Positions 13,240 to 25,662 of a stretch of 32,914 nucleotides of DNA are shown one piece after another. The notes beneath the pieces were generated by a model, which saw only the letters and a list, made by a program, of their open reading frames with translations, was not told the DNA's origin and searched no databases. The position numbers were made by a program, and so were the translations under genes. The DNA is from Alphaproteobacteria bacterium (lineage in GTDB: Bacteria; Pseudomonadota; Alphaproteobacteria; Micropepsales; Micropepsaceae). The number at the start of each line of letters is the position of its first letter. Positions within the stretch are counted from its first letter, which is position 1. The stretch covers positions 5,949-38,862 of the forward strand of contig PMKE01000030.1 in assembly GCA_003158585.1 (NCBI GenBank), written 5' to 3'.

Positions 13240-13269
13240 ATGGCCTCCTGCCAAATTCCAACCCGCGGA

Positions 13270-13893
13270 TTATACGCCCTGATCCGGCTTGGAGTCAGGT
13301 GAATCGGTAGGGGCAGGTTGGCGGTGCCATTTCAGGGTGTTGCGCCGACGCCCGAAGCCGAGCAGGCGCAAGGCCCATTTCTCCGGCAGCAGACCCGCCA
13401 GCACCTTGCTGCCGTCTAGCGGCGGAATCGGGATCAGGTTGAAGACGCCGAGTATCAGGTTGAAGGCGACCGAAGTAGACAGGGCCGTCATCATCCATTG
13501 GGGGGCGGCATAGTGGAAACCGCCATAGAATAACGCCCCCGAGACTGCCGCCAGGGCGAAGTTGGCAGCCGGCCCGGCGGCGGCCACCAGCATCATGTCG
13601 CGCTTGAAGTGTCTGAGTTTCGTCCAGTCCACGGGCACCGGCTTGGCCCAGCCGAACAGGAACGGGGAATGGATCAGGTAAAGGACGGCGGGGAGGATGA
13701 TCGTGCCGACGAGGTCGATGTGCCGGATGGGGTTCAGGGAGACGCGGCCTAGGCGCTTGGCTGTATCGTCGCCGCAGGCAGCGGCGACGAAGCCGTGTGC
13801 GGCCTCGTGGAATGTGATTGCAATCAGCGCCACGACGAAGATGGGCAGGACGGAACCGATGTCGGCGACGATCGAGAGGATGTTCTGGGGCAT
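13270..13893 (-). CDS. Site-2 protease family (M50) membrane metalloprotease
   Basis: Intramembrane zinc protease of the compact, cyanobacterial/Rv-type S2P group. It has HEAAH (His29, Glu30, His33) within the first long hydrophobic helix and NLIPIPPLDG near residue 152-161 supplying the third ligand Asp160; about five hydrophobic segments are visible. The protein has 207 residues from the ATG at 13893, normal for the short family without PDZ domain. Upstream in-frame sequence runs into the prophage and is not conserved-looking, so 13893 is preferred. A TATATAAT stretch lies about 15 bp before the ATG, possibly a -10 of a short-leader promoter. The prophage junction is only about 45 bp upstream of this start, so integration replaced everything further upstream. 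Confidence 0.85.
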   Translation of the reverse strand: MPQNILSIVADIGSVLPIFVVALIAITFHEAAHGFVAAACGDDTAKRLGRVSLNPIRHIDLVGTIILPAVLYLIHSPFLFGWAKPVPVDWTKLRHFKRDMMLVAAAGPAANFALAAVSGALFYGGFHYAAPQWMMTALSTSVAFNLILGVFNLIPIPPLDGSKVLAGLLPEKWALRLLGFGRRRNTLKWHRQPAPTDSPDSKPDQGV

Positions 13894-13936
13894 GACACCG
13901 ATTATATAGGGCGCCCGCCCCTCGTATACAGATGTA

Positions 13937-13964
13937 ATTGCCCATAATATATCGTGTTCCTTGG
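13937..13964 (+). other. attL: left prophage junction, dif-like XerC arm with degenerate XerD arm
   Basis: Left arm ATTGCCCATAA and central TATATC match the right junction except for one base of the arm. The right arm GTGTTCCTTGG lacks the TTAT...GAA...T pattern of an XerD site. This is read as host XerC arm plus central region joined to phage-derived sequence. The 13-bp core CCCATAATATATC is at 13941-13953 and recurs at 24756-24768. Confidence 0.7.
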
Positions 13965-14489
13965 CCTTATGCTTATTAGTTCCCCTTTCGGCCAAATCGA
14001 ATATTGATGGGCAATGGTCAGTACAATGACTAACCTTGTGCAAATCAGGTCCCTACGAGTCCGATCGGATCGTGACGCGACCGTCAGACGCCCTCAAGAG
14101 GGGTAGGGCGGTTCCGGCCCGTTCGGGCGCATTAAATTTAGCTACAGTAATTAGGGTTAATCGAGCGACCCGCTAAAGGTGCCGCACAGTAATCGCGGCG
14201 CCCCCTACCCCTATTGAACCGCCCTAATTCCGGTGCGTGTGCTGTCCGCGCCCACCAGCGGTGGGCGCCTTCGCGGGCAGGGGCGGGGGTATCCGCCGGG
14301 AAGCGTGAAGCCCCCGCCCCCACCCGCCCAGGCCGTGAGCTTTGCCCGCACACCCTGCCGGGAGCGTGCGGGATTTGAGGGACGGCAGGGGAGGGCTCCG
14401 ACCCAAGACGGGGCCTTCCCCCCGGACCCGTCCCTGAAACATCCCCCGGCTCGGCGCGAAGCGCGCACAACGCGAAGGACAAACCCACC
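13965..14489 (+). other. Non-coding, hairpin-rich left end of prophage; candidate replication origin and leader
   Basis: This 525-bp stretch has no convincing gene. The first part (to about 14095) shows only a short TTGGCC/GGCCAA pair. Then come an inverted repeat TAGGGCGGTTC (14104-14114) with GAACCGCCCTA (14216-14226) and a nested AGGGGTAGGG/CCCCTACCCCT pair; a perfect 9-bp hairpin GCGCCCACC-AGC-GGTGGGCGC (14248-14268); a 10-bp stem GGGGCGGGGG/CCCCCGCCCC (14280-14289 with 14311-14320); CCCGCAC/GTGCGGG (14345-14351 with 14366-14372); and GGGACGG/CCGTCCC (14379-14385 with 14428-14434). Such clustered hairpins and repeated TAGGG-type motifs beside an early replication operon suggest an origin for the nicking initiator or a structured leader. 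This is inference; no nick site is identified. Confidence 0.45.
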
Positions 14490-14897
14490 ATGTCAAAGAC
14501 TGTCGGACACCTAACCCCGTTCAAGGGTCAATCGGGCGAAGGCTACAAGGGCGAGCTGACCCTGCATTCCTGCCGGGGGCAGATTGCCCTCAAGCCCGTC
14601 GAAGAAAAACGCAGCGACCGCTCCCCCGATTTCACCGTGTTGATTGACCGGGAAGGGCAGGGCAACGGCTGGCAGGAATACGGCCTCGCGTGGGTCAAGA
14701 AGCCCGCGAACAAGACGGCTTATCTCTCGATCCTGATTGACCATGAGAGCCTGCCCGCTCCGTATAACGTCGCCGCCTTCCCCCCGTTGGACACAGCGAA
14801 AGACCCTCGGCACGTCATCGTGTGGGGGCGTCCGCGCGGCGGCAAGGTGGCCCTAGACGCCGCCTCGACACTCCCCGACGACGAAATCCCGTTCTAG
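14490..14897 (+). CDS. DUF736-like protein with SSB-type acidic C-terminal tail
   Basis: 135 residues. The body follows the DUF736 pattern seen on plasmids and integrative elements: a start like VGHLTPF, then GYKGELTL, SPDFTVLID, GLAWVKK, AYLSILIDHESLPAPYNVAAF and VIVWGRP. The last six residues DDEIPF match the acidic tip of single-stranded-DNA-binding proteins, which recruits host replication and repair proteins. It is therefore a good candidate for a phage ssDNA-binding or ssDNA-protecting protein supporting replication by the Rep encoded downstream. AAGGA lies 10 bp before the ATG. It is the first gene of the + strand operon, directly after the hairpin-rich region. DUF736 membership is from pattern recognition, and DNA binding is inferred. 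Confidence 0.65.
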   Translation: MSKTVGHLTPFKGQSGEGYKGELTLHSCRGQIALKPVEEKRSDRSPDFTVLIDREGQGNGWQEYGLAWVKKPANKTAYLSILIDHESLPAPYNVAAFPPLDTAKDPRHVIVWGRPRGGKVALDAASTLPDDEIPF

Positions 14898-14907
14898 GAG
14901 ACGTGCC

Positions 14908-15147
14908 ATGAGCGAACGTCGAATAGCGATCACCTACTTTGACCGGGCGGGTTACGTGCTGGCGCGCGGCACTACGCTCATGCTGACTGACCCTGTTCTA
15001 CCTGGATGGGTTGAAAAAGAGGTCACTTTTCACGCGCCAGGATCGGCACATTCGGCATTGGTGCATTCACGCCTTCAGTGTGAACCGATGCTTTATGACC
15101 TGTCCAAGCTTCCGAACCGGACGCCACTACACGGCGCGGCAGGGTAA
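14908..15147 (+). CDS. Phage protein of unknown function, 79 residues
   Basis: I do not recognise this protein. It begins MSERRIAITYFDRAGYVLARG, has no hydrophobic segment long enough to span a membrane, and appears to be a small soluble alpha/beta protein. Its Shine-Dalgarno AGGAGA overlaps the stop of the DUF736-like gene, and the ATG lies 10 bp after that stop, so the two genes are likely translated from one message. Its place between the putative ssDNA-binding protein and the initiator suggests a role in replication or early takeover, but nothing in the sequence proves this. Confidence 0.6.
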   Translation: MSERRIAITYFDRAGYVLARGTTLMLTDPVLPGWVEKEVTFHAPGSAHSALVHSRLQCEPMLYDLSKLPNRTPLHGAAG

Positions 15148-15153
15148 GGGCGA

Positions 15154-15495
15154 ATGAGCATCGTCTGCCCGCCGTCACTGGTGACTGTCACCTTGGATGC
15201 GGACTGCAAAGTCCGCCTCCGGGGGATCGCCCTGGCCCCGAACGTTCAGAGTGCTGCCCGCGACATTCAGCAGGATAGCTACAGACGGTCCTGGAAGCTC
15301 GGCGGGGCGCTTATCGTCAACGCGACTCTGGACCCTTCCGACATCATCGAGCGTCTGACAGACGTGCTCCTAATGCCCGCTACGCGGGGGATGGGCGCCC
15401 TTATGACGGATCAAGAATTTGACCTCTGGAGGCACCCCCAACCCCCCGCCCGTCTAACAGGGGGGGTTGGGCGTACAAGACCCGAACCGTTCTAA
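15154..15495 (+). CDS. Phage protein of unknown function, 113 residues
   Basis: I do not recognise this protein. It begins MSIVCPPSLVTVTLDADCKVRLRG and contains the stretch SDIIERLTDVLLMP; no transmembrane segment or catalytic motif is seen. AAGGG is upstream of the ATG, 6 bp after the previous stop. Its C-terminal codons (PQPPARLTGGVGRTRPEPF) encode the strong hairpin at 15437-15471, so the tail sequence may be constrained by RNA or DNA structure rather than protein function. Its TAA is 1 bp before the GTG chosen for the Rep gene. Confidence 0.6.
   Translation: MSIVCPPSLVTVTLDADCKVRLRGIALAPNVQSAARDIQQDSYRRSWKLGGALIVNATLDPSDIIERLTDVLLMPATRGMGALMTDQEFDLWRHPQPPARLTGGVGRTRPEPF
15437..15471 (+). 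repeat. Perfect 11-bp-stem hairpin at the end of the gene before rep
   Basis: CCCAACCCCCC (15437-15447) pairs perfectly with GGGGGGTTGGG (15461-15471) around a 13-nt loop. It ends 25 bp before the GTG proposed for rep and includes the only upstream TTG alternative. It lacks a following T-tract, so it is not a classical terminator. It could hold back translation of rep, stop or slow polymerase, or be a strand-specific nicking or priming structure. Confidence 0.6.
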
Positions 15496-15496
15496 A

Positions 15497-16813
15497 GTGC
15501 GCGACCTTCCCCAAATCCCACTGACTGACTGCCCGTCGTCATACGCGCGATTGCTTGCGCACGGGTGGGATACGCTGCAAGAGGCTTACGATCTCGCCAT
15601 GACGCCCGCCCTGGTCGGGCTGCTCACAGACGCGAAGGCGGCGGCGGAAGCGTCGGACAAAAAACGCGAAGGGCTGGCGCCCCTCTCTCTCGGCGACGTG
15701 GCGTACCACGTCCGCGCGACCGGTACGAAGGGTTATCGCTGGCAACTTGAGTGCGACGATTACCTGCTCCTGTTCGCCAATCCCGATACAGATTGGCCGG
15801 TGTCGATTCGCTACACGGCGGCGGGCCTCTGGAAGCACGGGCCGGAAGCGTTGCGCACGCGAGCGCTAAAGAGCCTTGCGGCGTACACGACACCCAACAC
15901 GCCGGACTTCATGCGCGTGACGCGCGCCGATTACTGTTTCGATTTCCATTCGCCTGCCTTTTTTGCGGAGTTCAGTCCGGGCGCGTTGCAGCGTGCCGTC
16001 GTCTGTCATTCATCGTGCAAGGTGCGGGAAGTCGGGGCCGGAAATTCTGTGCGGTCAATGTTGGACCGTGGCGAGACGTTGGACGTTAGTAAAAAATCGA
16101 AACTGAGAGTGTCGGTCCATGACAAGACGTTGCGGATTAGAGAGCCGGGCGGCAAGACGTGGGTGTATGATTTATGGGCTCAGGACGATGACTATTCCAC
16201 TTGGTCAACGTCGCATCGCGGCGAGACGCTCGACATCGGCAAAAAATCGAGCCTGCAAGTCTCGGTCTATGACAAGACGCTCGAAATCACGGAAGCCAGC
16301 GGCAAGACGTGGTTCTATGACCTTTGGGCGCGCGATGCGGACGGCGAAGTGTTTGACAGCGATGTAGCGCGCGTCGAAATCCGCATGTCGTCGGAGTTTT
16401 TGAAAGAGCGCAACGTCAGACGCTCCCATGAGCTCATGGCGCAGCGTCCGCAGCTACTTGTAGAGGCTCTATACAATCGGCGCCTGACCGTTCCGTCAGA
16501 TACGGACGGCAACCGGCGGCGCTGGCCGATGCACCCGCTTTGGAGCGAGGCCGTCCGCATGTCAGGCGCAACTGCCATGCTGCCGATAGGGCGCAAGCTG
16601 ACGGGCGCACGCGAGGCCGTCGTCAAGCAACTGCGGGCGCAGTTTCGCGGATTGATCCGCACCATGAGCGCGGCGCAATTCGGCGAGTACAATGAGGACA
16701 AGTTACGCGACACGCTGGCGAACGTCTGGAAAGAAACAACCGATGACCCGGAGCATGCGCGCAAACTGTCACAGGCATTGTTGCGGTATGAAGATTTAGA
16801 GGAGGCTCACTAG
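15497..16813 (+). CDS. Replication initiator, Rep_trans-type (RstA-like), with internal duplication
   Basis: Predicted rolling-circle-type initiator. The region VTRADYCFDF (Arg143, Asp145, Asp149) and the later block VSVYDKTLE...VARVEIRMSSEFLKERNV (Tyr258, Arg292, Glu294) follow the R-D-x-x-x-D, YDK and RxE pattern of the phage replication initiation family (PF02486) used by filamentous phages. Length 438 residues. A 43-residue segment is duplicated in tandem with a 50-residue period (190-232 and 240-282); the YDK tyrosine is replaced by His208 in the first copy. The start is uncertain: GTG at 15497 is 1 bp after the preceding stop and suggests coupling; TTG at 15467 is in frame but inside the hairpin. 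Charged C-terminal helices follow. PM2 itself also encodes a rolling-circle initiator, of a different family. Confidence 0.7.
   Translation: MRDLPQIPLTDCPSSYARLLAHGWDTLQEAYDLAMTPALVGLLTDAKAAAEASDKKREGLAPLSLGDVAYHVRATGTKGYRWQLECDDYLLLFANPDTDWPVSIRYTAAGLWKHGPEALRTRALKSLAAYTTPNTPDFMRVTRADYCFDFHSPAFFAEFSPGALQRAVVCHSSCKVREVGAGNSVRSMLDRGETLDVSKKSKLRVSVHDKTLRIREPGGKTWVYDLWAQDDDYSTWSTSHRGETLDIGKKSSLQVSVYDKTLEITEASGKTWFYDLWARDADGEVFDSDVARVEIRMSSEFLKERNVRRSHELMAQRPQLLVEALYNRRLTVPSDTDGNRRRWPMHPLWSEAVRMSGATAMLPIGRKLTGAREAVVKQLRAQFRGLIRTMSAAQFGEYNEDKLRDTLANVWKETTDDPEHARKLSQALLRYEDLEEAH
16064..16342 (+). repeat. Tandem 129-bp imperfect duplication inside rep (period 150 bp)
   Basis: The copies are at 16064-16192 and 16214-16342, separated by 21 bp. 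By hand alignment the encoded 43-residue copies share 30 identical residues, including RGETLD, KKS, VSV, DKTL and GKTW-YDLWA. Nucleotide divergence is mainly at third positions, with the first copy more AT-rich, so the duplication is old and both copies have been kept in frame. Confidence 0.9.
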
Positions 16814-17068
16814 ATGAAATGCCCTATCTGCGGCGCAGACGCGACCGTGACAATTCACACCCGGAAAAAACGCAAAGGCGAAACGCACGTCATGCGGTGC
16901 TCGGCCGGACATACGAAAATCTTAAAGCTGTCCGAACGGGAGGCAGCGCCGCCGTCGCTGCCGTTGGAAGAAACGCCGCCGCCTTCCGCAATCGAGCCGG
17001 AAGCTAAAAAAAAATCTGAACCCAGAACCCTCTTTGAGCAATTCGTCTCAACCGTCTTTGGAGAGTGA
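16814..17068 (+). CDS. Zinc-ribbon protein, possible transcription regulator
   Basis: 84 residues. The N-terminal half has CPIC (Cys3, Cys6) and, after about 23 residues, CSAGH (Cys29, His33), a zinc-ribbon spacing resembling Ogr/Delta-type phage late activators. The second half is proline- and lysine-rich, probably disordered, and ends in a helix-like LFEQFVSTVFGE. AGGAGG precedes the ATG, which directly follows the rep stop. A run of nine A residues (17006-17014) encodes the triple lysine and is a possible slippage site. Control of the downstream structural genes is a reasonable inference for such a protein in this place, but not shown. Confidence 0.6.
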   Translation: MKCPICGADATVTIHTRKKRKGETHVMRCSAGHTKILKLSEREAAPPSLPLEETPPPSAIEPEAKKKSEPRTLFEQFVSTVFGE

Positions 17069-17071
17069 CGC

Positions 17072-17543
17072 CATGAACGAACACCCGGAAGATACGACGG
17101 CGGGCGCGGCGATGACTGACGACACTATCGCTGAAATTCCCGTCGCGCCTTTAGAGCACCCGGAGGCCGTGCAATATGCCGATGACATCGGCACGGTCGC
17201 GGGCCTGATGACGGCCGATGAATTTTTCGCGTTTTTCTCGCAATCGTTCACGGTCGCGGGCGGCGTGTACGGCATGGTCACCATGTCGCCGCCGCTACAA
17301 TCGCTGATGACGGCGGGCGAGCTAGCGACGGCGCGTCCGGCGTCCGATGCGATCTATGGCATGGCGTCTAAGTTCTCATGGCTGCAATTCCTCATACGCA
17401 AAGAGGGCGCGTGGATTGCCCAGGCGGCGGCGCTTGCGGCGTTCGGGATGCAGCTATCTGTCGCCGTCATGGCGGAACTCAAGGCGCGCACTCCCATTCC
17501 GCAACCGGCGAACGACAACGCGACGGCGGCGGAGGCGGTGTAA
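17072..17543 (+). CDS. Phage protein of unknown function with a hydrophobic C-terminal half
   Basis: 156 residues from the ATG at 17072 (GGAGAG upstream). The first 50 residues are acidic. The middle carries FFAFFSQSFTVAGGVYGMVTM, and residues around 115-135 (WIAQAAALAAFGMQLSVAVMAEL) are hydrophobic or amphipathic enough for a membrane helix. I do not recognise the family. Its place directly before the packaging ATPase region suggests a virion membrane or assembly protein. The zinc-ribbon gene ends 3 bp before it. Confidence 0.6.
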
Positions 17544-17737
17544 TGCGCTACAACTTCATGCGAACGATGGCGAGCATGGCGGCGCTGTTTACGATTTCGT
17601 CGCCTCTCTTGAGTGTGCTCGATTTCGATATGCCCGTGTTGCCGTTGCGAGCGGGCAGGGCACCTATCGGGCGTAAGTCCCACCATCAAAAGCGGCGCAT
17701 CATGTTAGTCGCGCGCAATCGGCGGCGGGCGCGTTGA
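17543..17737 (+). CDS. Small basic protein with N-terminal hydrophobic segment
   Basis: 64 residues starting with an ATG that overlaps the preceding TAA (TAATG). Residues about 8-25 (TMASMAALFTISSPLLSVL) are hydrophobic; the C-terminal half is strongly basic (GRKSHHQKRRIMLVARNRRRAR). The combination suggests a membrane-attached protein whose tail contacts nucleic acid or lipid head groups. No family recognised. Its stop overlaps the TTG start of the ATPase, so translation is probably coupled. Confidence 0.5.
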   Translation: MRYNFMRTMASMAALFTISSPLLSVLDFDMPVLPLRAGRAPIGRKSHHQKRRIMLVARNRRRAR

Positions 17738-18375
17738 GAGAAATCGTTTCGATCAATGGCGGCACCGGATCGGGCAAGACGACGCTTGCCCGGCAGATTA
17801 TCGCGGACAAATTCCGCGCGGTGTTAATCGACCCGGCGGGCGATAAGTCTTGGCATCGTTCCGGCTTCCGTCCGGCGCGCGACATGCCGCAACTCTCGAA
17901 GGCGATAGCGGCACATTGGCGAGACGGCTTCCGTCTCGTGCTCGTGCCGCCTGCCCACCTTTGCGCGGAAGCTCTGGACTGCGTGTCGTTGCTCGTGCTC
18001 GCTTATCAGGGGCGGCTCTATCGCGGGCGTGACGCGGACAACGTGTCGTTGATCGTGGACGAAATGGCGGAGTGCTACTCTAACGCGCACGCCATGCGAA
18101 GCGATCTTCGCGGCTTTCGGCAAGTGATCTTACAGGGGCGTCACTTCGGGATTTCCGTGTACGGAATAACGCAGCGCCCGGCCGATGTGGCGGCGCAGTT
18201 TCGTGACAACTGCGATCCTGCTTATTACTTCCAACTTTTCGACGACACATCGCGCGTTCGGATCATCGGCAAGCTCGGGCGCGAGTACAGAGAAGCGCTG
18301 CGGGGCTTGCAGAAATTCGAGTATCTCAAGGTATCGGCGGGGCAGGTGACAAAGGGGCGTACCCAGAAAAACTGA
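17734..18375 (+). CDS. Genome-packaging ATPase, FtsK/HerA superfamily (PM2 P9-like)
   Basis: 213 residues, the compact size of packaging ATPases of membrane-containing tailless phages. Walker A is GGTGSGKTT (9-17), Walker B is VSLIVDE (104-110, Asp109-Glu110), and GRHFGISVYGITQRP (135-149, Gln147) is the conserved strand and sensor that follows it in the HerA/FtsK group. It is expected to sit at a special vertex and pump DNA into the capsid. The start is TTG, overlapping the preceding stop by 3 bp, with a GGCGGCGGG stretch upstream. Zot-type proteins of filamentous phages share the superfamily, but the absence of a transmembrane segment and the proximity of a P2-like capsid gene favour a packaging ATPase. 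Confidence 0.75.
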   Translation: MREIVSINGGTGSGKTTLARQIIADKFRAVLIDPAGDKSWHRSGFRPARDMPQLSKAIAAHWRDGFRLVLVPPAHLCAEALDCVSLLVLAYQGRLYRGRDADNVSLIVDEMAECYSNAHAMRSDLRGFRQVILQGRHFGISVYGITQRPADVAAQFRDNCDPAYYFQLFDDTSRVRIIGKLGREYREALRGLQKFEYLKVSAGQVTKGRTQKN

Positions 18376-18399
18376 GTCCGGTCAACAATTTGCCTCAGA

Positions 18400-18427
18400 T
18401 TGCAACTGTCACCGTTTCTGATACACT
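18400..18427 (+). promoter_or_regulatory. Possible promoter of the structural gene block
   Basis: TTGCAA (18400-18405) and TACACT (18422-18427) are separated by 16 bp in the 96-bp gap between the ATPase and the next gene, the first sizeable gap of the operon. The fit to sigma-70 consensus is moderate. It would drive the tiny membrane protein and the major capsid gene. Confidence 0.35.
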
Positions 18428-18440
18428 TAGCGATGCATGA

Positions 18441-18471
18441 AGCTTCCCGGCTAACTAACGCGGGAGCTTTT
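18441..18471 (+). promoter_or_regulatory. Hairpin enclosing the ribosome-binding site of the next gene
   Basis: AGCTTCCCG (18441-18449) pairs with CGGGAGCT (18461-18468) with one bulged T, followed by TTTT and then the ATG at 18472. The right arm contains GGGAG, the Shine-Dalgarno of the downstream gene, so folding would hide it. The stem plus T-run also looks like a weak terminator; either would let the phage adjust capsid-block expression. Confidence 0.4.
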
Positions 18472-18600
18472 ATGCTCAATCTCACAAGTCTGGCCGGTCA
18501 GGTCTGCATCGTTGCGGCGGGCGTCTTGCTCGCCGGGATACTGATGAACCTGTACCCCAAGCTCCCGATCATTTCGACGGCCCTTAAGGGCTTCGATTGA
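18472..18600 (+). CDS. Tiny single-span membrane protein, 42 residues
   Basis: The product is almost entirely one hydrophobic helix (about residues 10-30, QVCIVAAGVLLAGILMNLY) followed by a short tail. GGGAG at 7 bp upstream supports the ATG at 18472. It lies between packaging ATPase and major capsid protein, where PM2-type phages encode virion membrane proteins. No catalytic motif. Function inferred from size and position only. Confidence 0.55.
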   Translation: MLNLTSLAGQVCIVAAGVLLAGILMNLYPKLPIISTALKGFD

Positions 18601-18637
18601 GCGTGCGCCCCCCCTTCATCTTCGGAGCCTGAAACCT

Positions 18638-19519
18638 ATGGCACTCAAACCCATCTTTTCGCCTTGCGTCACGCAGCGGCTTAGGATGCCGACCGTCAAC
18701 AACGTGGCCGCTTCTTCGATGGCAACCGTCACGCTGACGCCCGGTTATCGTTACCGGCGTCTGCATTTGGTCTATGGCGGTACCACGTTCACGCCGACCA
18801 ACATGACCGGCATTCGTCTCTACGCGGACAATGAGTTAATTCAAAGCCTCTCCGGCACGCTGCGCGACATGCTCAATCAATTCGACAAGATGCCCGCCGC
18901 GTCCACCTACAAGGATTTGGTGATTTCGTTCGAGCGTATCGACATGACCGATCCCGACGCGCGGTATCTGACCTGCATCAACACCGGGAGCAAGTCGAAG
19001 GGCGTTCAGTCCAAATCGGGCATTATGAACTTGCGCTTGGAAATCGACATCAATTCCGGTGCCAGCGCTCCGACACTCGACATTTACGCCGACGTGATGG
19101 ACGTGAACGTCGAACAATCCCGCCTCATGCCGCGTATCGACACTTATTCGGAAAACGTGGCGGCAACCGGCGAGTTCCTTCACGCCAATTCGTCGCGCTA
19201 TGTCGGCGACAAGCTGCGCCCCTATGTGACGCGCATTACGCTTGGCGACACCTCGTCCAATATCACGGCGCTCCGCTTGCGCCGGAACAACGAAGATATT
19301 GTCGCGCTGCCCACGGCGGTGCTGCAATATAGCCAGGTTGCGGAGCTTCGCCGCGCGCCGCAGTCCGGTTATGTGGCGTTCGATACCGGCGACATGGGCG
19401 AGTACTTCAACATCATCGACCCGATCCACATGAGCACCTTCGAGGTGCGTTCGACGCACGCCGCGACGAACGCTTCGCTGCCGGTGATTGTGGAGAGCCT
19501 GGGGCCGTGCGCTTCGTAG
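18638..19519 (+). CDS. Major capsid protein, PM2 P2-like double jelly-roll
   Basis: 293 residues, close to the 269 of PM2 P2. The N-terminal segment has the pattern of this family: RMPTVNNVAASSMATVTL, then RYRRLHLVYGG, TGIRLYADNELIQ and TLRDMLNQFDKM, similar in order and spacing to P2 (IPNVAAGN..., IDLRYSG..., VRVELDGRLL). A second half repeats the layout with YVTRITLGD and NEDIVALPTAVLQ, consistent with two jelly rolls, and the sequence is rich in beta strands. No signal peptide or membrane helix. CGGAGC precedes the ATG. It would form the pseudo-hexameric trimers of the icosahedral shell around an internal membrane. Homology is from pattern recognition, not a search. Confidence 0.75.
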   Translation: MALKPIFSPCVTQRLRMPTVNNVAASSMATVTLTPGYRYRRLHLVYGGTTFTPTNMTGIRLYADNELIQSLSGTLRDMLNQFDKMPAASTYKDLVISFERIDMTDPDARYLTCINTGSKSKGVQSKSGIMNLRLEIDINSGASAPTLDIYADVMDVNVEQSRLMPRIDTYSENVAATGEFLHANSSRYVGDKLRPYVTRITLGDTSSNITALRLRRNNEDIVALPTAVLQYSQVAELRRAPQSGYVAFDTGDMGEYFNIIDPIHMSTFEVRSTHAATNASLPVIVESLGPCAS

Positions 19520-19540
19520 TATCGTAGCGGAGGCATTCCT

Positions 19541-19882
19541 ATGCCCGATTTTACGGACGGTATCGACCTGACCGACGACAAAAATTCTATCGGAGGAATT
19601 GCGTCATCGGTAGGCAGCGGCGTTGTGTCCGCGCTTGGCGGCGGCGACTCCGGTATCGGCTCGTTCTTGAGCAATCTCGGAACTACTGCCGTCAGTACTT
19701 TGGGGACCATCTTCACGACCCAGGCGCAGACTGCCGCCTATATCGCGAAGCTGAAGGCACAAACACAATCTTATGCCACGACGGCGACTGTCTCTGCCGC
19801 GACGGGCGGCGGGACCGGAATCAACTGGACGCTGCTCATCGTGATAATCGCCGCCGTCGCATTGTTCATGGAAAAAAGGTGA
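19541..19882 (+). CDS. Putative virion membrane protein, Gly/Ser/Thr-rich with C-terminal anchor
   Basis: 113 residues. The first 95 are small-residue-rich (Gly, Ser, Thr, Ala) with a helix-like TTQAQTAAYIAKLKAQTQ in the middle, followed by a C-terminal transmembrane helix (WTLLIVIIAAVALFM) and a short basic tail EKR. GGAGG lies upstream of the ATG, 22 bp after the capsid gene. Immediate location after the major capsid protein suggests a structural protein of the internal membrane. No specific family is recognised. Confidence 0.6.
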   Translation: MPDFTDGIDLTDDKNSIGGIASSVGSGVVSALGGGDSGIGSFLSNLGTTAVSTLGTIFTTQAQTAAYIAKLKAQTQSYATTATVSAATGGGTGINWTLLIVIIAAVALFMEKR

Positions 19883-19885
19883 CGC

Positions 19886-20092
19886 ATGTCCACTTGGAAT
19901 GACAACTACGCTGCCCCTGCTTATGCGGTGTTGCACCCGGCAAAGACGACGCCCGCGGGCGAAAAAACCGTCGCGGCCGGACACGAAGCGACGCTCTCGA
20001 CCGCTTTGGCCGTGCGGCCGTTCGGCGTGCACCCGCTCGTCTTGATCGGCGGTGCGGTGCTCGTCTGGTACGTGTTTATCCGCAAGCGGTGA
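19886..20092 (+). CDS. Tail-anchored small membrane protein, 68 residues
   Basis: A polar N-terminal half is followed by one C-terminal hydrophobic helix (PLVLIGGAVLVWYVFI) and the tail RKR. AAGGTGA is just before the ATG. Topology (soluble head, C-terminal anchor, basic end) is the same as in the neighbouring genes at 19541, 20099 and 21664. Likely a minor component of the phage membrane; no motif allows a narrower call. Confidence 0.55.
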   Translation: MSTWNDNYAAPAYAVLHPAKTTPAGEKTVAAGHEATLSTALAVRPFGVHPLVLIGGAVLVWYVFIRKR

Positions 20093-20098
20093 TCCGCC

Positions 20099-20299
20099 GT
20101 GAGCCTGCTTCCGTCGCTTGGGTTGAGTACGACCTCCACGCCGGTTTCTTCGGCGCCTGGGGGCGAAGTGCTGTTCGGCGATATCAATGTCGGGGCGGCG
20201 GCGGATATAGCGGCGGCGGGCGAAATCGTGCGGCTGAATTGGCCGCTGATAATCGCGGTGGGCGTCGGGATTTATCTCGTCTGGCGTATGAGGCGGTGA
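20099..20299 (+). CDS. Tail-anchored small membrane protein, 66 residues
   Basis: It starts at GTG (20099), 6 bp after the previous stop. Residues 1-40 are polar and glycine/alanine-rich; LIIAVGVGIYLVWRMRR forms a C-terminal membrane helix with a basic end. The stop is directly followed by the ATG of the next gene. Same build as its neighbours; putative virion membrane protein. Confidence 0.5.
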   Translation: MSLLPSLGLSTTSTPVSSAPGGEVLFGDINVGAAADIAAAGEIVRLNWPLIIAVGVGIYLVWRMRR

Positions 20300-20515
20300 A
20301 TGTGCGGCGGTTCTAAATCCACGCAACAGACGCAGGCGAGCGAGACCGTCAACACGACGTATACGGATTACGGCGCGATCAAATCCGCGACCGAAATCCT
20401 GGGGCAAGCGCAAGAGCTGGTAGCGGCGCAAACCATGTCGCCGCAAGAGCAGACGATGCAGCTCCTTGTCGTCGGCGGCGTCTTGATCGGGGTTGCCCTG
20501 GTACTGAAGGATTGA
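20300..20515 (+). CDS. Tail-anchored small membrane protein, 71 residues
   Basis: The N-terminal 50 residues are polar (rich in Thr, Gln, Ser, Glu) and the last 20 form a hydrophobic helix (LLVVGGVLIGVALVL) ending in KD. It starts with the ATG immediately after the preceding TGA and ends 3 bp before the next ATG. The MCGG start resembles nothing known. Probably a virion membrane protein by context. Confidence 0.5.
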   Translation: MCGGSKSTQQTQASETVNTTYTDYGAIKSATEILGQAQELVAAQTMSPQEQTMQLLVVGGVLIGVALVLKD

Positions 20516-20518
20516 GCA

Positions 20519-21106
20519 ATGGCGCGCATTACCAATCAATCTGTTACGCTGGCAGCGGGCGCGTCGCGCTACGTCGATTTTGACGGCGATTGGCTGGCGC
20601 TGACGGCCTCGACGGACACCATTACGGTACAATTCGATCAAGAAGCGCCCGTCGATATTTGGGCGCTCTGTGTCTATGAGCAAAAGTACGCGAGTTTGAA
20701 GTTCAACAATCCCACGGCGGCGTCTGTCACCTTCCGCTTTCAGGCGGGCGTCGGTCCTAAGCCGTATTTCCCGCCCGTCGCGGCGAGTGTGTCGCTTGCG
20801 ACGCGCGCGACGACGCTGATAACGCTGGCGCCGGTTGCGGTGACCCAGAACACACCGATCATAGTTGTCGCTGCGAACGCGCTTAATTACCGCGTCATGC
20901 TGCAAACGGATGCGAGTGGCAACACTGTGGCGGGCGATGCAAATGTGTTGCCGCCTGGCGGCGGGACGCAGCGCGGCGTGAATATCCCGACGGTAGCCGC
21001 CGCCGGAAACCCGCCGTTGATTTTTTATACGCAGTCGGACGTGTACGCCAACACGTCGGGTGCAACCGTTCATGTCTATCCCACCATTGAGAGGTACACG
21101 GCATGA
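20519..21106 (+). CDS. Beta-rich virion protein candidate (spike or penton)
   Basis: 195 residues with no membrane helix or signal peptide. The sequence alternates hydrophobic and polar residues throughout (SVTLAAGASRYVDFDG, TITVQFDQEAPVDIWAL, SVTFRFQAGVG), as expected of a jelly-roll or beta-sandwich. The C-terminal half is rich in Thr, Asn, Pro and Gly like receptor-binding domains. In the PM2 lineage the only soluble beta-rich proteins besides the major capsid protein are those of the five-fold vertices, so a penton or spike is the best guess. It is translationally coupled to the hydrolase gene (4-bp overlap). Confidence 0.5.
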   Translation: MARITNQSVTLAAGASRYVDFDGDWLALTASTDTITVQFDQEAPVDIWALCVYEQKYASLKFNNPTAASVTFRFQAGVGPKPYFPPVAASVSLATRATTLITLAPVAVTQNTPIIVVAANALNYRVMLQTDASGNTVAGDANVLPPGGGTQRGVNIPTVAAAGNPPLIFYTQSDVYANTSGATVHVYPTIERYTA

Positions 21107-21660
21107 TCGGCGAATTGCTCGTTGCGGTGTTGCTCGGGGTTGCGATTTTTGCCGTGTTGCAACAGCTAAACCCCGTCACGGTGAACGGCGCCGTTCTGCC
21201 GAGCGACGACGTGCTGAACGACGTGAGTACGCTATTCAACGACACGGCGGGCAGTCTGTCGTCGGGCGATGGCGTCGAAACCCTGGCGCGCACCATCTGG
21301 GGCGAGGCGAGGGGAGAGAGTGACGCGGGCAAGATTGCCGTGGCCTCAGTTGTACGCAATCGCGCGACGGCGGGTCTTTTGTCCGGCTGGCCTTCGGACA
21401 TCGCGGGTGTTTGTACGCAACGCTTACAATTCTCTTGTTGGAATTCAAACGATCCGAACCGGCCATTGCTTCTTTCCGTGACTGAGGCGGACCCGACCTA
21501 TGCTCGCTGTCTCGAAATCGCGGCGGGGGTTGTCAGTGGCACAATCCCCGACAACACGGGTGGCGCGACCTGTTACTACAACCCGGCCGTGGTAACGCCT
21601 TCGTGGGCCGCGTCCATGACCGTGACGGCGCGTATCGGCAATCATCTGTTCTTGAGGTAG
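21103..21660 (+). CDS. SleB-type cell-wall hydrolase, membrane anchored
   Basis: 185 residues. An N-terminal transmembrane helix (ELLVAVLLGVAIFAVL) anchors a catalytic domain beginning at about residue 58: LARTIWGEARGE (Glu68, Glu72), then GKIAVASVVRNRA and QRLQFSCWN, the core of the Hydrolase_2 (PF07486) family of peptidoglycan hydrolases related to spore-cortex SleB. It should cut the peptidoglycan glycan strand. The anchor and its place among virion proteins suggest a virion-bound enzyme that opens the wall during entry, although release at lysis is also possible. ATGA overlap with the preceding gene. Confidence 0.82.
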   Translation: MIGELLVAVLLGVAIFAVLQQLNPVTVNGAVLPSDDVLNDVSTLFNDTAGSLSSGDGVETLARTIWGEARGESDAGKIAVASVVRNRATAGLLSGWPSDIAGVCTQRLQFSCWNSNDPNRPLLLSVTEADPTYARCLEIAAGVVSGTIPDNTGGATCYYNPAVVTPSWAASMTVTARIGNHLFLR

Positions 21661-21663
21661 GTC

Positions 21664-21867
21664 ATGCCGGTCATTCTCGGAATTGAACTAGGCGACTGGC
21701 TGCTTGCGGGCGGCGTCGGCTGGCTGGCCGCAAACGCATCGGGCGCCGTGGAAGGCACTACTGAGGGCGTTGCGGCGGGCGTGCAAGGTGCAACGTCCAA
21801 TCTGCTGACCATTGCCATGATCGGCGGCGCCGCCGCGCTGCTTTACGTTTTGCTGCGCAAGGGTTGA
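21664..21867 (+). CDS. Small membrane protein with two hydrophobic segments, 67 residues
   Basis: The N-terminal part (ILGIELGDWLLAGGVGWLAA) is amphipathic to hydrophobic, the middle is Gly/Ala/Thr-rich, and the end (LLTIAMIGGAAALLYVLLRKG) is a clear membrane helix with basic tail. Starts 4 bp after the hydrolase stop. The sequence resembles small holin-like or virion membrane proteins; position next to the hydrolase makes a holin possible but unproven. Confidence 0.5.
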   Translation: MPVILGIELGDWLLAGGVGWLAANASGAVEGTTEGVAAGVQGATSNLLTIAMIGGAAALLYVLLRKG

Positions 21868-21871
21868 GACG

Positions 21872-22009
21872 ATGAAAACCAACACGATCATCATAGTCGC
21901 CGTCGTCGCCGTCGTCGCGTTCTTCGTGTGGCAGCGCTACAGCGCGTCGGAAATCGCTGCCGTGACACACAAAGACTTGGTGAAGGTGCTGAACGGAAGT
22001 GAGAAATGA
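21872..22009 (+). CDS. Tiny N-terminally anchored membrane protein, 45 residues
   Basis: MKTNTIIIVAVVAVVAFFVW is a transmembrane helix at the N-terminus followed by a charged 25-residue tail ending LNGSEK. The stop overlaps the next ATG (ATGA). A valine/alanine repeat in the helix is encoded by a GTCGCC-type repeat. Putative virion membrane protein. Confidence 0.5.
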   Translation: MKTNTIIIVAVVAVVAFFVWQRYSASEIAAVTHKDLVKVLNGSEK

Positions 22010-22287
22010 GCGACCGCAACGTCACCTTGATCGTCACTCTCGCCGGGCTTGGCGTGCTCGCGTATCTCTACATGACGCGCGCGCAACAGGGTTACGCCAT
22101 TGTGACGGAAGGCGGCGATACGTCGTCGGATGTGAAAAGCGAACTCAATAAAATCGCGGACTTCGGAACGAGTGTGGTCAAGCAATCCGTCGCCAATGTA
22201 GCGGCGGGCGATCCGACCGGCACGGGGAGCGATTGGCTTAATTGGCTGTTGGTTTCGCCGTTTGCGCTGTTGGCAATCCTTCCATGA
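22006..22287 (+). CDS. Small membrane protein, 93 residues, N- and C-terminal helices
   Basis: An N-terminal helix (VTLIVTLAGLGVLAYLYM) is followed by a polar region with SDVKSELNKIADFGTSVVKQSV, and a C-terminal hydrophobic stretch (WLNWLLVSPFALLAILP). It overlaps both neighbours by 4 bp. No family recognised; probably part of the phage membrane. Confidence 0.5.
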   Translation: MSDRNVTLIVTLAGLGVLAYLYMTRAQQGYAIVTEGGDTSSDVKSELNKIADFGTSVVKQSVANVAAGDPTGTGSDWLNWLLVSPFALLAILP

Positions 22288-22598
22288 ACGTCACGCGAAA
22301 CATGGCGCTCCTTGTTCTCGCCGTCGCGGGCGCGGGCCTTTGGCTTTGGCTGCGCCACTCCGCGACGCTCGAAAGCGTCTCGACGGGCAAGGCCGTGTCG
22401 TCGGCTGACGTGCTCAAAGGGGTACTGACGACGACGGCGGCGGCTGAGACGGCAGCGACGACGCAACAGGCGGCGACGACACAGACGCCAGCGGCGGCAG
22501 CGGCGGCGCAAGAAGAGGGCGTCGGCAATGAACCGTTTACCGGGCAACCGCTCCATGACGGGGTGTTGTTAGCTCTACAAAAGGCGTTCAACCTATGA
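22284..22598 (+). CDS. N-terminally anchored membrane protein with Ala/Thr-rich stalk, 104 residues
   Basis: An N-terminal helix (MALLVLAVAGAGLWLWL) is followed by a long low-complexity region of Ala, Thr and Gln (residues about 50-75), then a short C-terminal domain ending HDGVLLALQKAFNL. The low-complexity stretch may be a flexible stalk. ATGA overlaps on both sides. Candidate virion membrane or vertex-associated protein. Confidence 0.5.
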   Translation: MNVTRNMALLVLAVAGAGLWLWLRHSATLESVSTGKAVSSADVLKGVLTTTAAAETAATTQQAATTQTPAAAAAAQEEGVGNEPFTGQPLHDGVLLALQKAFNL

Positions 22599-22732
22599 GC
22601 GATTGGCTGACGTTCGACACTAAGACGACGCTAGGCAATATCGAAATCGGCGTGGCGCAGGGCCTCGGCTTTGCGATCATGTACGTCCTGATCGTTCATG
22701 TTCTTTGGGAACGGGGGCTGGCGAAACGATGA
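22595..22732 (+). CDS. Tiny membrane protein, 45 residues
   Basis: A polar start (MSDWLTFDTKTTLGNIEIG) leads into one hydrophobic helix (LGFAIMYVLIVHVLW) and a basic tail RGLAKR. It is in a 4-bp overlap chain with both neighbours, which is the main argument that it is translated. No family recognised. Confidence 0.5.
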   Translation: MSDWLTFDTKTTLGNIEIGVAQGLGFAIMYVLIVHVLWERGLAKR

Positions 22733-22902
22733 TTGATTTTCTCGCCATTGCCGCCGTGCTCGGGGTTCCGGCTAACGCTGCCATTGTCATCGTTGCGTTC
22801 TGGATGATTGACCGGCGGCTCATTCGTATAGAGACGGCCTGCCAGCTCCGCTGCCAGATCGCGGGCGTCTCGTATTCAGTTCTGGCGGCAAAAAAAGAGT
22901 GA
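22729..22902 (+). CDS. Small membrane protein, 57 residues
   Basis: Starts at the ATG at 22729 overlapping the previous stop. The first 25 residues form a hydrophobic helix (FLAIAAVLGVPANAAIVIVAFWMI), followed by a basic and cysteine-containing stretch (RRLIRIETACQLRCQI) and a charged end. The layout resembles small accessory holin or virion membrane proteins. No family assigned. Confidence 0.5.
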   Translation: MIDFLAIAAVLGVPANAAIVIVAFWMIDRRLIRIETACQLRCQIAGVSYSVLAAKKE

Positions 22903-22910
22903 GGCTCACA

Positions 22911-23228
22911 ATGGAAATGAAGAAAGCAACTACCGGCACCAGTCCCGACGCGCTGCTGTCGCGCATCGCCGCATTGGAAGCTATCGCGCTTCCGATGCTG
23001 TCGATCATCTTCCCTTCGTTCGCTCGCTACGTTCCGGCCGCGACCGCTTTGACCGGCGCCGCGCATGAGGTGGTAAAGGCGTTCGAGGTGGACGGCTTGT
23101 CCCACGCGGACGCGGTGGCGAGCTTTGCCGCTGTCGCCGCTCCGCCGCTTCCGGCTCCGCCTGCGCCGTCTGCCGACGAAATCGCGGCGGCGCGTGCGAT
23201 CCTGTCCCGCGTCCCTGTGGAGGCGTAG
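22911..23228 (+). CDS. Phage protein of unknown function, 105 residues
   Basis: Mostly helical, with a moderately hydrophobic centre (ALPMLSIIFPSFARYVPAATALTG) and a proline-rich linker (APPLPAPPAPSADE) before a final helix (IAAARAILSRVPVEA). GAGG is upstream of the ATG at 22911. Neither a clear membrane span nor catalytic motif is present. It lies between the membrane-protein chain and the basic peptide; a virion or assembly role is inferred from position only. Confidence 0.5.
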   Translation: MEMKKATTGTSPDALLSRIAALEAIALPMLSIIFPSFARYVPAATALTGAAHEVVKAFEVDGLSHADAVASFAAVAAPPLPAPPAPSADEIAAARAILSRVPVEA

Positions 23229-23232
23229 GCCG

Positions 23233-23325
23233 ATGGTGAAGCGTATCCGCCGCCGTCGCGCGGCCAAGCCGAAACGCCGGGTGCGTAGGAAGCGCAAGAC
23301 GCTGTTCCAGAAGCTCCTGGGTTAG
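23233..23325 (+). CDS. Arg/Lys-rich 30-residue peptide, possible DNA-condensing protein
   Basis: Sixteen of 30 residues are Arg or Lys (start MVKRIRRRRAAKPKRR), with a short hydrophobic end LFQKLLG. It starts 4 bp after the previous stop and the next gene begins 2 bp after its own stop, so it sits cleanly in the operon. The composition is that of protamine-like or virion core peptides which neutralise packaged DNA, with the C-terminal segment possibly touching the membrane. Function is inferred from composition. Confidence 0.5.
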   Translation: MVKRIRRRRAAKPKRRVRRKRKTLFQKLLG

Positions 23326-23327
23326 CG

Positions 23328-23840
23328 GTGAGCGTCCGCCCGGCAGTCCCGGCCGACGTGTCGGCCCTTTGCACGATGGGCGTGGCGATGGCTCTTGAGG
23401 GGAGCTATCGCCACTTGCCCGTCAATGTCGAAAAGTCGGCCGCGAAGTTCCGGGCGTGGATTGCCGATCCTGATTATTGCGTCCTGGTCGCCATGCATGA
23501 CGGCAAGGTGATCGGCTTCGTGATCGGCTTCGTGGCCTCGCACGACTTCCACGACGGGCTAGGGGCCTGGGATAAGCTGTTCTATCTCCGACCGGAGGCG
23601 CGCGGTTCGGGGTATGCCTACAGGCTCTATAGAGCGTTTCGGCAATGGGCGGCGGCCAAGGGTGCGCTCGACGTGTGGCCGGGCGTTTCGACGGCAGACG
23701 GCAAGGCGGTGCAATTCTATCAGCGCATGGGCCTGGAGGCCGTGGGGGTGCTGTTCAGGGATCCTCTCAGCGATAATGCTGAAGTAGCAACATCGCAATT
23801 AGCATCCCAAGGACAACAGCCAGAAGCACCCTGCGGTTAG
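23328..23840 (+). CDS. GNAT family N-acetyltransferase
   Basis: 170 residues, GTG start. Typical GNAT layout: an N-terminal VRPAVPADV strand-helix, VLVAMHDGKVIGFVIGF (motif D/A strand), RPEARGSGYAYRLYRAF (acetyl-CoA pyrophosphate loop, R-G-S-G-Y-A) and KAVQFYQRMGLEAVGVLF (motif B). It would transfer acetyl from acetyl-CoA to an amine of an unknown target, for example a virion or host protein. GNAT genes of this kind occur as late accessory genes in alphaproteobacterial phages. Its last 74 bp overlap the converging small membrane gene on the other strand. Confidence 0.8.
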   Translation: MSVRPAVPADVSALCTMGVAMALEGSYRHLPVNVEKSAAKFRAWIADPDYCVLVAMHDGKVIGFVIGFVASHDFHDGLGAWDKLFYLRPEARGSGYAYRLYRAFRQWAAAKGALDVWPGVSTADGKAVQFYQRMGLEAVGVLFRDPLSDNAEVATSQLASQGQQPEAPCG

Positions 23841-23916
23841 CTTTCTGTTCCCGAATACGCTTCCAGCGGGCCTTCATGACTTTGGAGCGATTGGACACCT
23901 TCGGCGGTGTGCTCAT
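23767..23916 (-). CDS. Small basic membrane protein, 49 residues
   Basis: A very basic N-terminal half (SNRSKVMKARWKRIREQKANRR) is followed by a membrane helix (VLLAVVLGMLIAMLLL). GGAGGAA lies upstream of the ATG at 23916, which overlaps the stop of the preceding gene (ATGA). The end overlaps the convergent GNAT gene by 74 bp. By its accessory position it could be an immunity or exclusion factor expressed in the lysogen; there is no direct evidence. Confidence 0.5.
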   Translation of the reverse strand: MSTPPKVSNRSKVMKARWKRIREQKANRRVLLAVVLGMLIAMLLLQHYR

Positions 23917-24317
23917 GGCTTCCTCCGGCAGGGGTATTCCTCTGCGAGCGCGCGACCGATGAAATCCTGAATATCGTAGGTGCGTGCCTTGTCCGGGTGT
24001 CGTTCGGCATAGGATTTTAGGACTGCGGTAATGTTGCCGGGCTGCGCGGCCTTGGGGATGCAGAATCGTATGTGTTGTTCGGCGAGACGCTGTCCTATGT
24101 CCATCGCCTTTGCGCCTTCGCCAAAGCGTGTGCAATTTGGTTCGCAGTAGGTGAGCACTTCACCGGCGTTCATCGGCCCTCCGGTCTGTCCGGGCCTGGC
24201 CGGTTCAAAGGCCAGGCCGGCCGAAGTAGTCATTACAATCGACAGTGCGCAGGCGGCGAGCAACGAGGCGCGAGACGTGATTTTCCGATAGCCCGTGGTG
24301 TGCTGCAATCTTGGCAT
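23913..24317 (-). CDS. Secreted Rap1a/Tai-like protein
   Basis: 134 residues with a signal peptide (hydrophobic core SLLAACALSIVM, cleavage near residue 36, AGLA). The mature part follows the Rap1a/Tai family layout: MNAGEVLTYC, then RFCIP, then a helix NITAVLKSYAERHPD and ALAEEYPC with paired cysteines. Rap1a proteins are periplasmic immunity proteins against secreted toxins, so a protective or exclusion role for the lysogen is conceivable. The start at 24317 overlaps the upstream regulator gene by 113 bp; a shorter start inside the signal sequence cannot be excluded. No T6SS effector gene is nearby. Confidence 0.6.
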   Translation of the reverse strand: MPRLQHTTGYRKITSRASLLAACALSIVMTTSAGLAFEPARPGQTGGPMNAGEVLTYCEPNCTRFGEGAKAMDIGQRLAEQHIRFCIPKAAQPGNITAVLKSYAERHPDKARTYDIQDFIGRALAEEYPCRRKP

Positions 24318-24753
24318 TGGTCCATCCCTTCCATGCTTGAATGAGTATCAGGCGGTTGCGTTGAGCCTTGAGGGCGGCGCGGGAGTGCGTGCGCTCATCG
24401 GCCAGGACGGCCTTGGCGTCGCTCGGGGTGAGGTTGAGGGTCCGGCATAGCCCGTCGATGATGGCCGGGTCCGACGCGCCGTGAAGTGAGCGCATCGCGG
24501 CGGCGTGAATGACGCGGGCGCGGCGCTCGGACTCGCGCTTGACCGTCGCGCTGCGCTCGACCGTCTCAGCGTGGCGGCGTAATTCGTCTGCTTCGCGGTC
24601 CAGGCGGGCCGCGATCTCACGCATTTCTTGTGGTGACACAGCCCCCCGGTGCGCTCCGTTCCCGTCGCGTTCCCCCGCAAATATATTTCGCTCGCGAAGG
24701 GAAAGTAATCGGGGGTTGTGGTGACTGTCCATACTCTTACTGCCGCGCATCAT
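24205..24753 (-). CDS. HTH-containing putative transcription regulator at the right phage end
   Basis: 182 residues. The N-terminal two thirds are highly charged and helical (PQEMREIAARLDREADELRRHAETVERS, coiled-coil-like). The C-terminal part ILIQAWKGWTNAKIAAHHGLSENHVSRLV is a clear helix-turn-helix of the sigma-region-4/recombinase type. It is the first gene of the leftward module and its ATG overlaps the attR repeat by 2 bp, so its promoter must lie in the dif site and host flank. A lysogeny or accessory-module regulator is likely. Start could also be the ATG at 24732. Confidence 0.6.
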   Translation of the reverse strand: MMRGSKSMDSHHNPRLLSLRERNIFAGERDGNGAHRGAVSPQEMREIAARLDREADELRRHAETVERSATVKRESERRARVIHAAAMRSLHGASDPAIIDGLCRTLNLTPSDAKAVLADERTHSRAALKAQRNRLILIQAWKGWTNAKIAAHHGLSENHVSRLVARRLRTVDCNDYFGRPGL

Positions 24754-24779
24754 TTCCCATAATATATCTTATACGAATT
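24752..24779 (+). other. attR: complete dif-like site (XerC arm, 6-bp core, XerD arm)
   Basis: XerC arm ATTTCCCATAA, central TATATC, XerD arm TTATACGAATT. The two arms are inverted partners: the reverse complement of the left, TTATGGGAAAT, agrees with the right in 8 of 11 positions, as expected for dif. The XerC arm is phage-derived and the XerD arm host-derived, so a working dif would be retained after integration. It separates the last phage gene from mazG; the rest of the gap to 24861 holds nothing obvious. Confidence 0.7.
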
Positions 24780-24861: not shown

Positions 24862-25662
24862 ATGGAAAAAACGAATCACTCCAAAGGTATCGAGTCGCTT
24901 CTTGAGATCATGCGGCGGCTACGCGACCCGGCCTCCGGATGTCCGTGGGACCGCGAGCAGGACTTCTCGACCATCGCGCCCTACACCATCGAGGAAGCCT
25001 ACGAAGTGGCCGGCGCCATCGAGGACGCGGACTGGGCGCACCTCAAGGACGAGCTGGGCGACCTGCTGTTCCAAGTCGTATTCCACGCCCGCATGGCCGA
25101 GGAACGCGGGCTGTTCGATTTCTCCGGTGTCGTGGACGCCATTGTTTCCAAGATGATCGCCCGTCATCCTCATGTGTTCGGGGGAAAGGAACGGCCAGAG
25201 GATGCTGCGGCCCAGACCGTGGCCTGGGAGGAGCAGAAGCGCGCCGAGCGCGCGGGCAAGCACGCCAGCCTGCTGGATGACGTGCCGCACGCCCTGCCCG
25301 CCCTCACCCGCGCCAAGAAGCTTCAACAGCGCGCCGGAACCGTCGGATTCGATTGGGAAAGCGCTCCGAAGGTGGTGGAGAAAATCGCAGAGGAAGCCGG
25401 CGAGATCGTCGAGGCGCAGGCGGCAGGCGCCGGGGCCGACAAGCTGGAAGAGGAAGTTGGCGACCTGTTGTTCGCCGTCGCCAATTTGTCGCGACACTTG
25501 AAGGTGGACCCGGAAAAGGCCCTGCGCAGCGCCAATGCCAAATTCGTCCGCCGCTTCCGAGCCATCGAGGCCGGACTTGCGGCGCGTGGACGGACTACTG
25601 CCGAGGCCACCCTCGACGAGATGGAAGTGCTTTGGCAGGAAGCGAAGAAAGACGAGAAATGA
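24862..25662 (+). CDS. mazG: Nucleoside triphosphate pyrophosphohydrolase
   Basis: Hydrolyses (d)NTPs to monophosphates and pyrophosphate, cleaning aberrant nucleotides and affecting ppGpp metabolism. Two MazG repeats are visible: PASGCPWDREQDF...IEEAYEV...LKDELGDLLFQVVFHARM in the N-terminal half, and KVVEKIAEEAGEIVEA...LEEEVGDLLFAVANL in the C-terminal half, with the ExxE and ExxD magnesium residues in both. At 266 residues it is full length compared with E. coli MazG (263). GGGAA precedes the ATG. First host gene to the right of dif, and the only + strand gene of that flank. Confidence 0.93.
   Translation: MEKTNHSKGIESLLEIMRRLRDPASGCPWDREQDFSTIAPYTIEEAYEVAGAIEDADWAHLKDELGDLLFQVVFHARMAEERGLFDFSGVVDAIVSKMIARHPHVFGGKERPEDAAAQTVAWEEQKRAERAGKHASLLDDVPHALPALTRAKKLQQRAGTVGFDWESAPKVVEKIAEEAGEIVEAQAAGAGADKLEEEVGDLLFAVANLSRHLKVDPEKALRSANAKFVRRFRAIEAGLAARGRTTAEATLDEMEVLWQEAKKDEK

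Follow-up and report, generated by a model that had tools for sequence, protein, structure and literature searches.

The prophage and its integration site

The window, as the whole 32,914-nucleotide stretch of DNA analysed is called here, lies on contig PMKE01000030.1 of a Micropepsaceae genome and holds an integrated element bounded on both sides by dif-type sequences (Table 1). The original prediction of a PM2-type capsid module is borne out by the P2_N and P2_C domains of the capsid protein and by the packaging ATPase encoded next to it. This pair of genes marks the Vinavirales, while a SleB-type cell wall hydrolase together with an alphaproteobacterial host (the relatives are alphaproteobacterial as well) marks the Mestraviridae or clade A. 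By gene content, the element is a member of Vinavirales, probably nearest in type to clade A (PMC9502842). The DUF736 gene next to the replication initiator (Rep) also occurs in the related elements L053, L054, L055, L128 and L132. A Rap1a immunity-like ORF (PF18602, 2.7e-8) is found within the prophage at 23913-24317 on the minus strand.

Table 1. Features of the element and its surroundings, in window positions
Feature	Position	Strand	Evidence or remark
Integrated element of PM2-like (Vinavirales) type, 10.84 kb including both junctions	13937..24779	.	dif-type junctions at both ends; empty locus in congeners; P2 capsid, ATPase and endolysin inside
Left junction, CCAAGGAACAC GATATA TTATGGGCAAT	13937..13964	-	core and XerD-type arm as in right junction (16/17); XerC-type arm degenerate
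Non-coding leader, candidate origin region	14040..14490	+	strong predicted single-strand DNA folding, z = -4.7 vs shuffles
DUF736 protein	14490..14897	+	PF05284 8.9e-14; repeatedly adjacent to Rep in related elements
Predicted Rep_trans rolling-circle replication initiator, 438 aa	15497..16813	+	PF02486 2.8e-9; fold match 4CIJ/4CWC; conserved catalytic residues
R143-x-D145-x-x-x-D149 motif, predicted metal ligands	15923..15943	+	invariant in 11 relatives
Copy 1 (extra) of 50-aa tandem duplication, with His208 in the position of the catalytic Tyr	16058..16207	+	30/50 aa and 96/150 nt identical to copy 2
Copy 2 of 50-aa duplication, carries catalytic YDK (Tyr258)	16208..16357	+	comparison with copy 1
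Y258-D259-K260, predicted nicking tyrosine	16268..16276	+	invariant in 11 relatives; Tyr invariant in 25
R292-x-E294 motif	16370..16378	+	invariant
Packaging ATPase (P9-like)	17734..18375	+	phrog_2666 9e-21
Major capsid protein (MCP), double jelly-roll, PM2 P2 family	18638..19519	+	PF18628 (P2_N) 3e-19; PF25513 (P2_C) 1.6e-16
SleB-type cell wall hydrolase (endolysin)	21103..21660	+	PF07486 5.6e-22
GNAT acetyltransferase	23328..23840	+	PF00583 9.7e-14
HTH protein at right end, likely regulator	24205..24753	-	weak HTH_23 5.3e-5, below cut-off
Right junction, AATTCGTATAA GATATA TTATGGGAAAT, complete chromosomal-type dif, 28 bp	24752..24779	-	19/22 vs dif consensus
Host mazG	24862..25662	+	adjoins dif in congeners too

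The ATPase gave a marginal Zot score (22.5 bits; P-loop), but an inovirus identity for the element was rejected: the capsid is of the P2 type, phrog_2666 fits the ATPase better, and the element ORFs scanned had no match to coat or secretin genes. Likewise, no recombinase profile was found among the ORFs scanned, a set that takes in part of the small ORFs.

The two junctions share a 17-mer, ATTKCCCATAATATATC, whose only occurrences in the window are those at 13937 and 24752 (0 in 100 shuffles). The right junction is the sole CATAAN6TTATN3AA site in the assembly, and its 28 bp are identical in an element-free congener (L078/L138). In element-free congeners, the gene order tmk-holB-tatD-MBL-dif-mazG-hflX-hfq places dif upstream of mazG, and nine congeners and one confamilial genome each contain exactly one match to the pattern, with none for a reversed control pattern. 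The dif junctions of the original prediction are thus real, and the element is inserted exactly at the single-copy chromosomal dif upstream of mazG. As the left site is degenerate in one arm and keeps the core and the other arm, a single full working dif remains, the right one beside mazG, which is the arrangement that Xer-using phages leave after integration. Integration probably depends on XerCD. A GC-skew switch at dif was not found on the 52-kb contig, which lends no support there to dif being the replication terminus.

Including the one in the window, seven PM2-like elements are flanked by dif sites. By arm assignment, the phage site of the window has kept the XerD-type arm, and those of the six others (L051, L053, L054, L055, L126 and L069) have kept the XerC-type arm. 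L069 (G255:C1, 8524-18657), which has a Rep_trans gene and provides the only 22/22 dif match, combines a distant packaging ATPase with the lack of a recognised P2 capsid, and its capsid is possibly of yet another divergent type. In several different alphaproteobacteria, PM2-like elements (that of the window, L126, L054, L130 and L132) lie in the same dif-bearing holB-tatD-MBL // mazG neighbourhood, a locus that appears to be a shared integration hot spot. An M50 site-2-type peptidase gene (13270-14043) sits between a conserved host gene (13018-13254) and the left dif junction of the window; it lies mostly beyond that junction, outside the element, and was not found at this locus in the element-free congeners L138-L144.

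The replication initiator and its internal duplication

The Rep ORF runs from a GTG start at 15497 to a stop codon ending at 16813, and a longer TTG-started form from 15467 is also listed. A PF02486 search across its own genome passed over the protein, but hmmscan picks it up at 37.3 bits, above the curated Pfam cut-off of 29.6 bits. The AlphaFold2 model (mean pLDDT 79.5) retrieved 4CIJ (E 2.7e-9) and 4CWC (E 9.1e-6) in a fold search, followed by TATA-binding proteins, which are expected because the Rep_trans fold is TBP-like. At the sequence level, the Rep family profile also reached 4CIJ, a Geobacillus Rep_trans structure, but weakly (E 0.006), whereas phmmer of Rep against PDB gave no useful match. 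With RepDE of S. aureus (4CWC) and the Geobacillus Rep (4CIJ), the protein has in common the fold, the catalytic tyrosine, the acidic residues and the RxE motif. It differs from both in its extra N- and C-terminal parts and in a 50-aa duplication, and is too distant from them for pairwise sequence detection.

The catalytic pattern originally proposed was right in its components, namely an acidic motif, YDK and RxE, but not in its spacing, which is R-x-D-x-x-x-D and not R-D-x-x-x-D. Motif invariance was scored over 11 full-length relatives; D25 is conserved, as are Y258, D145/D149 and E294. A P12-like identity was rejected, as PM2 P12 belongs to PF05840 (E 7e-124) and the hhalign probability of P12 against Rep is 0.2%. 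Further, no Phage_GPA/HUH profile matched Rep in the profile scan. The assignment to Rep_trans and the separation from PM2 P12 thus both stand, and the matching profile is not that of an unrelated family. Collectively, profile, fold and residues indicate an intact Rep_trans (PF02486) rolling-circle initiator, with origin nicking and rolling-circle replication as its predicted functions. Initiators of this type are familiar mainly from plasmids and filamentous phages.

The duplicated segment surrounds the catalytic tyrosine and was found in the Rep of the window only, the insert being absent from all relatives compared. The two copies differ with a dN of 0.35 and a dS of 1.47 (dN/dS about 0.24), which suggests that the duplication is old and has been kept under constraint; copy 1 may perhaps form a second DNA-contact hairpin. 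An internal duplication could also leave Rep impaired, and one may ask whether the element is a decaying prophage whose initiator is inactive for this reason. That the insertion is peculiar to this Rep and that the model is of low confidence at residues 180-242 would fit such decay. However, the ORF is open, copy 2 holds all catalytic residues, the copies have diverged at the dN/dS given above, and the capsid, ATPase and lysin genes are intact, so that decay is improbable.

Distribution and phylogeny of the initiator

A class-wide search found the P2_N capsid gene in 10 of 385 alphaproteobacterial genomes, and in seven of these, that of the window included, a Rep_trans gene lies no more than a few kb from the capsid gene. 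Rep_trans is therefore the usual initiator of the alphaproteobacterial PM2-like elements found. No phage matched the element in megablast, and single-sequence searches of viral contigs with Rep alone or the capsid protein alone found no related loci. A search with the Rep alignment (species genomes and viral contigs) brought to eight, the window included, the PM2-like elements with the same Rep subfamily, counted with both capsid and ATPase genes present; it also found a truncated ninth element in Ferrovibrio (L132) and two true inoviruses (L131 and L098).

Rep_trans has been listed among the replication proteins of Vinavirales, in which replication genes are often displaced (PMC9502842), and movement of rep genes among PM2-like phages is already published (PMC9502842, PMC1950889). 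In our data, the grouping by Rep is mirrored neither in the capsid tree (label W needs 5 changes; shuffled mean 5.6) nor in the ATPase tree (5 changes; shuffled mean 5.8), implying that rep genes have been swapped between PM2-like phage lineages; it should be noted that both trees have few well-supported branches and that the capsid tree is poorly resolved.

Of the two inoviruses, L131 (MAG BRZ_CT bin99) encodes Zot (101 bits), a secretin, and coat and pIII-like proteins, and L098 (IMG/VR) encodes Zot (1.2e-34) and a secretin 61% identical to that of L131. In place of the P2 capsid gene of the window element, they have Zot, secretin, pIII-like and coat genes, yet their Reps match its Rep from end to end (28-29% identity, E 1e-49 to 1e-59) and fall in the same subfamily. 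Neither showed a dif-like pair. Adjoining the inovirus Rep gene of L060/L131 is a divergently oriented Recombinase ORF (PF07508, L060:7486-8775), apparently without the N-terminal catalytic part.

The 11 Reps (eight PM2-like, two inovirus and one from the truncated element) form one clade (99/99 and 100/100), within which those of L131 and L098 are sisters and stand beside the PM2-like L052 (98/96 and 99/97). A tree constrained to keep the PM2-like rows (L132 among them) separate from the inoviruses is 14 to 19 log units worse, with AU p values of 0.058 and 0.067, or 0.021 when the truncated Ferrovibrio row L132 is left out; AU support for the nesting is thus borderline. Grouping all inovirus Reps as a single clade is rejected (p 0.002), and those of Pf1 and a Synechococcus inovirus lie at the far end of the tree, separated from the Rep of the window by the longest internal branch. 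The tree points to transfer from PM2-like phages to inoviruses as likelier than the reverse, with moderate support only, because L052 and L131 are AT-rich rows of deviating composition, which can make them attract each other.

These relationships bear on the original proposal that an inovirus-like element had supplied replication and Xer integration jointly, as a single module. Integration at dif is common in inoviruses. Rep_trans is common among them too (PMC6668415), and the expected phylogenetic link exists in so far as L131 and L098 carry the same Rep subfamily. However, these two nest within the PM2-like rows and showed no dif-like pair, and the Reps of Pf1 and Synechococcus are far off. 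Other dif-flanked PM2-like elements, for which a search had originally been suggested, were found with Reps in two distant subgroups, and the phage Jorvik has dif-like sites with an unrelated replicase. Rep and Xer use are therefore not linked, and in PM2-like phages recourse to Xer/dif is better seen as a common trait in its own right. With Rep_trans in Vinavirales already reported (PMC9502842), acquisition of both traits in one step from an inovirus-like element is very unlikely.

For the initiator alone, two histories have to be weighed. It may have crossed directly from one virus realm to another, with alphaproteobacterial PM2-like dsDNA phages as donors and filamentous ssDNA phages of that class as recipients, which we put forward tentatively; if true, an ssDNA virus replicates with the initiator of a dsDNA phage. 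Alternatively, related alphaproteobacterial plasmids or integrative elements could have supplied Rep to PM2-like phages and to inoviruses on separate occasions, without any direct transfer between viruses. Exchange of Reps between inoviruses and plasmids is known, and plasmids have been proposed as the source of many phage Reps (PMC6668415). The sister Rep group, moreover, is made up mostly of elements without an MCP gene and of loci on plasmids (L002, L003 and L064 are examples), and the DUF736-Rep pair is present in the MCP-less L064 as well. Such independent uptake is possible, though we lean against it, as the 11-row clade itself yielded neither plasmids nor integrative elements. A search of open-access main texts on Rep_trans in inoviruses and in Corticoviridae or Vinavirales found no report of the sharing of this Rep subfamily.

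Relation to known phages and proposed life cycle

Vinavirales clade A, or Mestraviridae (PMC9502842; ICTV 2025, PMC12451628), includes the Rhodobacter phage Jorvik (PMC10589892). Like the window element, its members combine a PM2-type capsid protein and ATPase with a SleB-type lysin and alphaproteobacterial hosts, and have genomes of about 10 kb without a recognised integrase. Jorvik also has dif-like attachment sites (PMC10589892), but its site is in the RuBisCO region and its replicase is short and P1-RepL-like, whereas the window element occupies a single-copy dif beside mazG and encodes a Rep_trans protein with an internal duplication. Similarly, the NO16-like Asemoviridae of Vibrio have a PM2-like capsid and proposed XerCD/dif integration (PMC9966536), but their hosts are Gammaproteobacterial and their capsid protein is only about 25-29% identical to that of the window. 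PM2 itself (Corticoviridae) has in common with the element the P2 capsid, the P9 ATPase and the gene order Rep-ATPase-P7-P2, and differs in its initiator, the HUH protein P12 (PF05840), which has no similarity to the Rep of the window.

The locus is thus very probably a temperate PM2-like prophage with a Rep_trans initiator drawn from an exchangeable pool and with dif/XerCD integration. In the life cycle that we propose, the phage would supply its own initiator and no recognised integrase, and its circular genome would recombine with the chromosomal dif through the host XerCD. As attP would match dif in the core and one arm and be degenerate in the other, integration would keep a full working dif at the right junction. 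Once the phage has excised, Rep would use Tyr258 to nick the double-strand origin and, remaining covalently bound there, would drive rolling-circle replication of the circle, which the P2 capsid would then take up. As an exchangeable replication cassette, the rep gene would belong to a pool common to alphaproteobacterial PM2-like phages, plasmids and integrative elements. At least one exchange with inoviruses of the same class would have taken place, with the PM2-like side as the more likely donor.

The pairing of Rep_trans, PM2-type capsid and dif is recurrent and already described in this phage group, and is not a one-off transfer from a filamentous phage. Its parts (Rep_trans in Vinavirales, replacement of replication genes and XerCD/dif integration) are known for the group, as is their combination. 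The element shows again that in small phages the capsid, the initiator and the integration route are separate, exchangeable parts. It also adds two concrete cases: the reuse of the mazG-side dif by several PM2-like elements, and one Rep subfamily common to PM2-like phages and inoviruses of a single class, a specific sharing that is a modest addition. Finally, the integration mechanism of most Vinavirales prophages has been called unclear (Yutin et al. 2022, PMC9502842), and XerCD/dif-like integration has been published for Jorvik (PMC10589892) and NO16 (PMC9966536); the seven dif-flanked elements support the XerCD answer proposed for these two phages.
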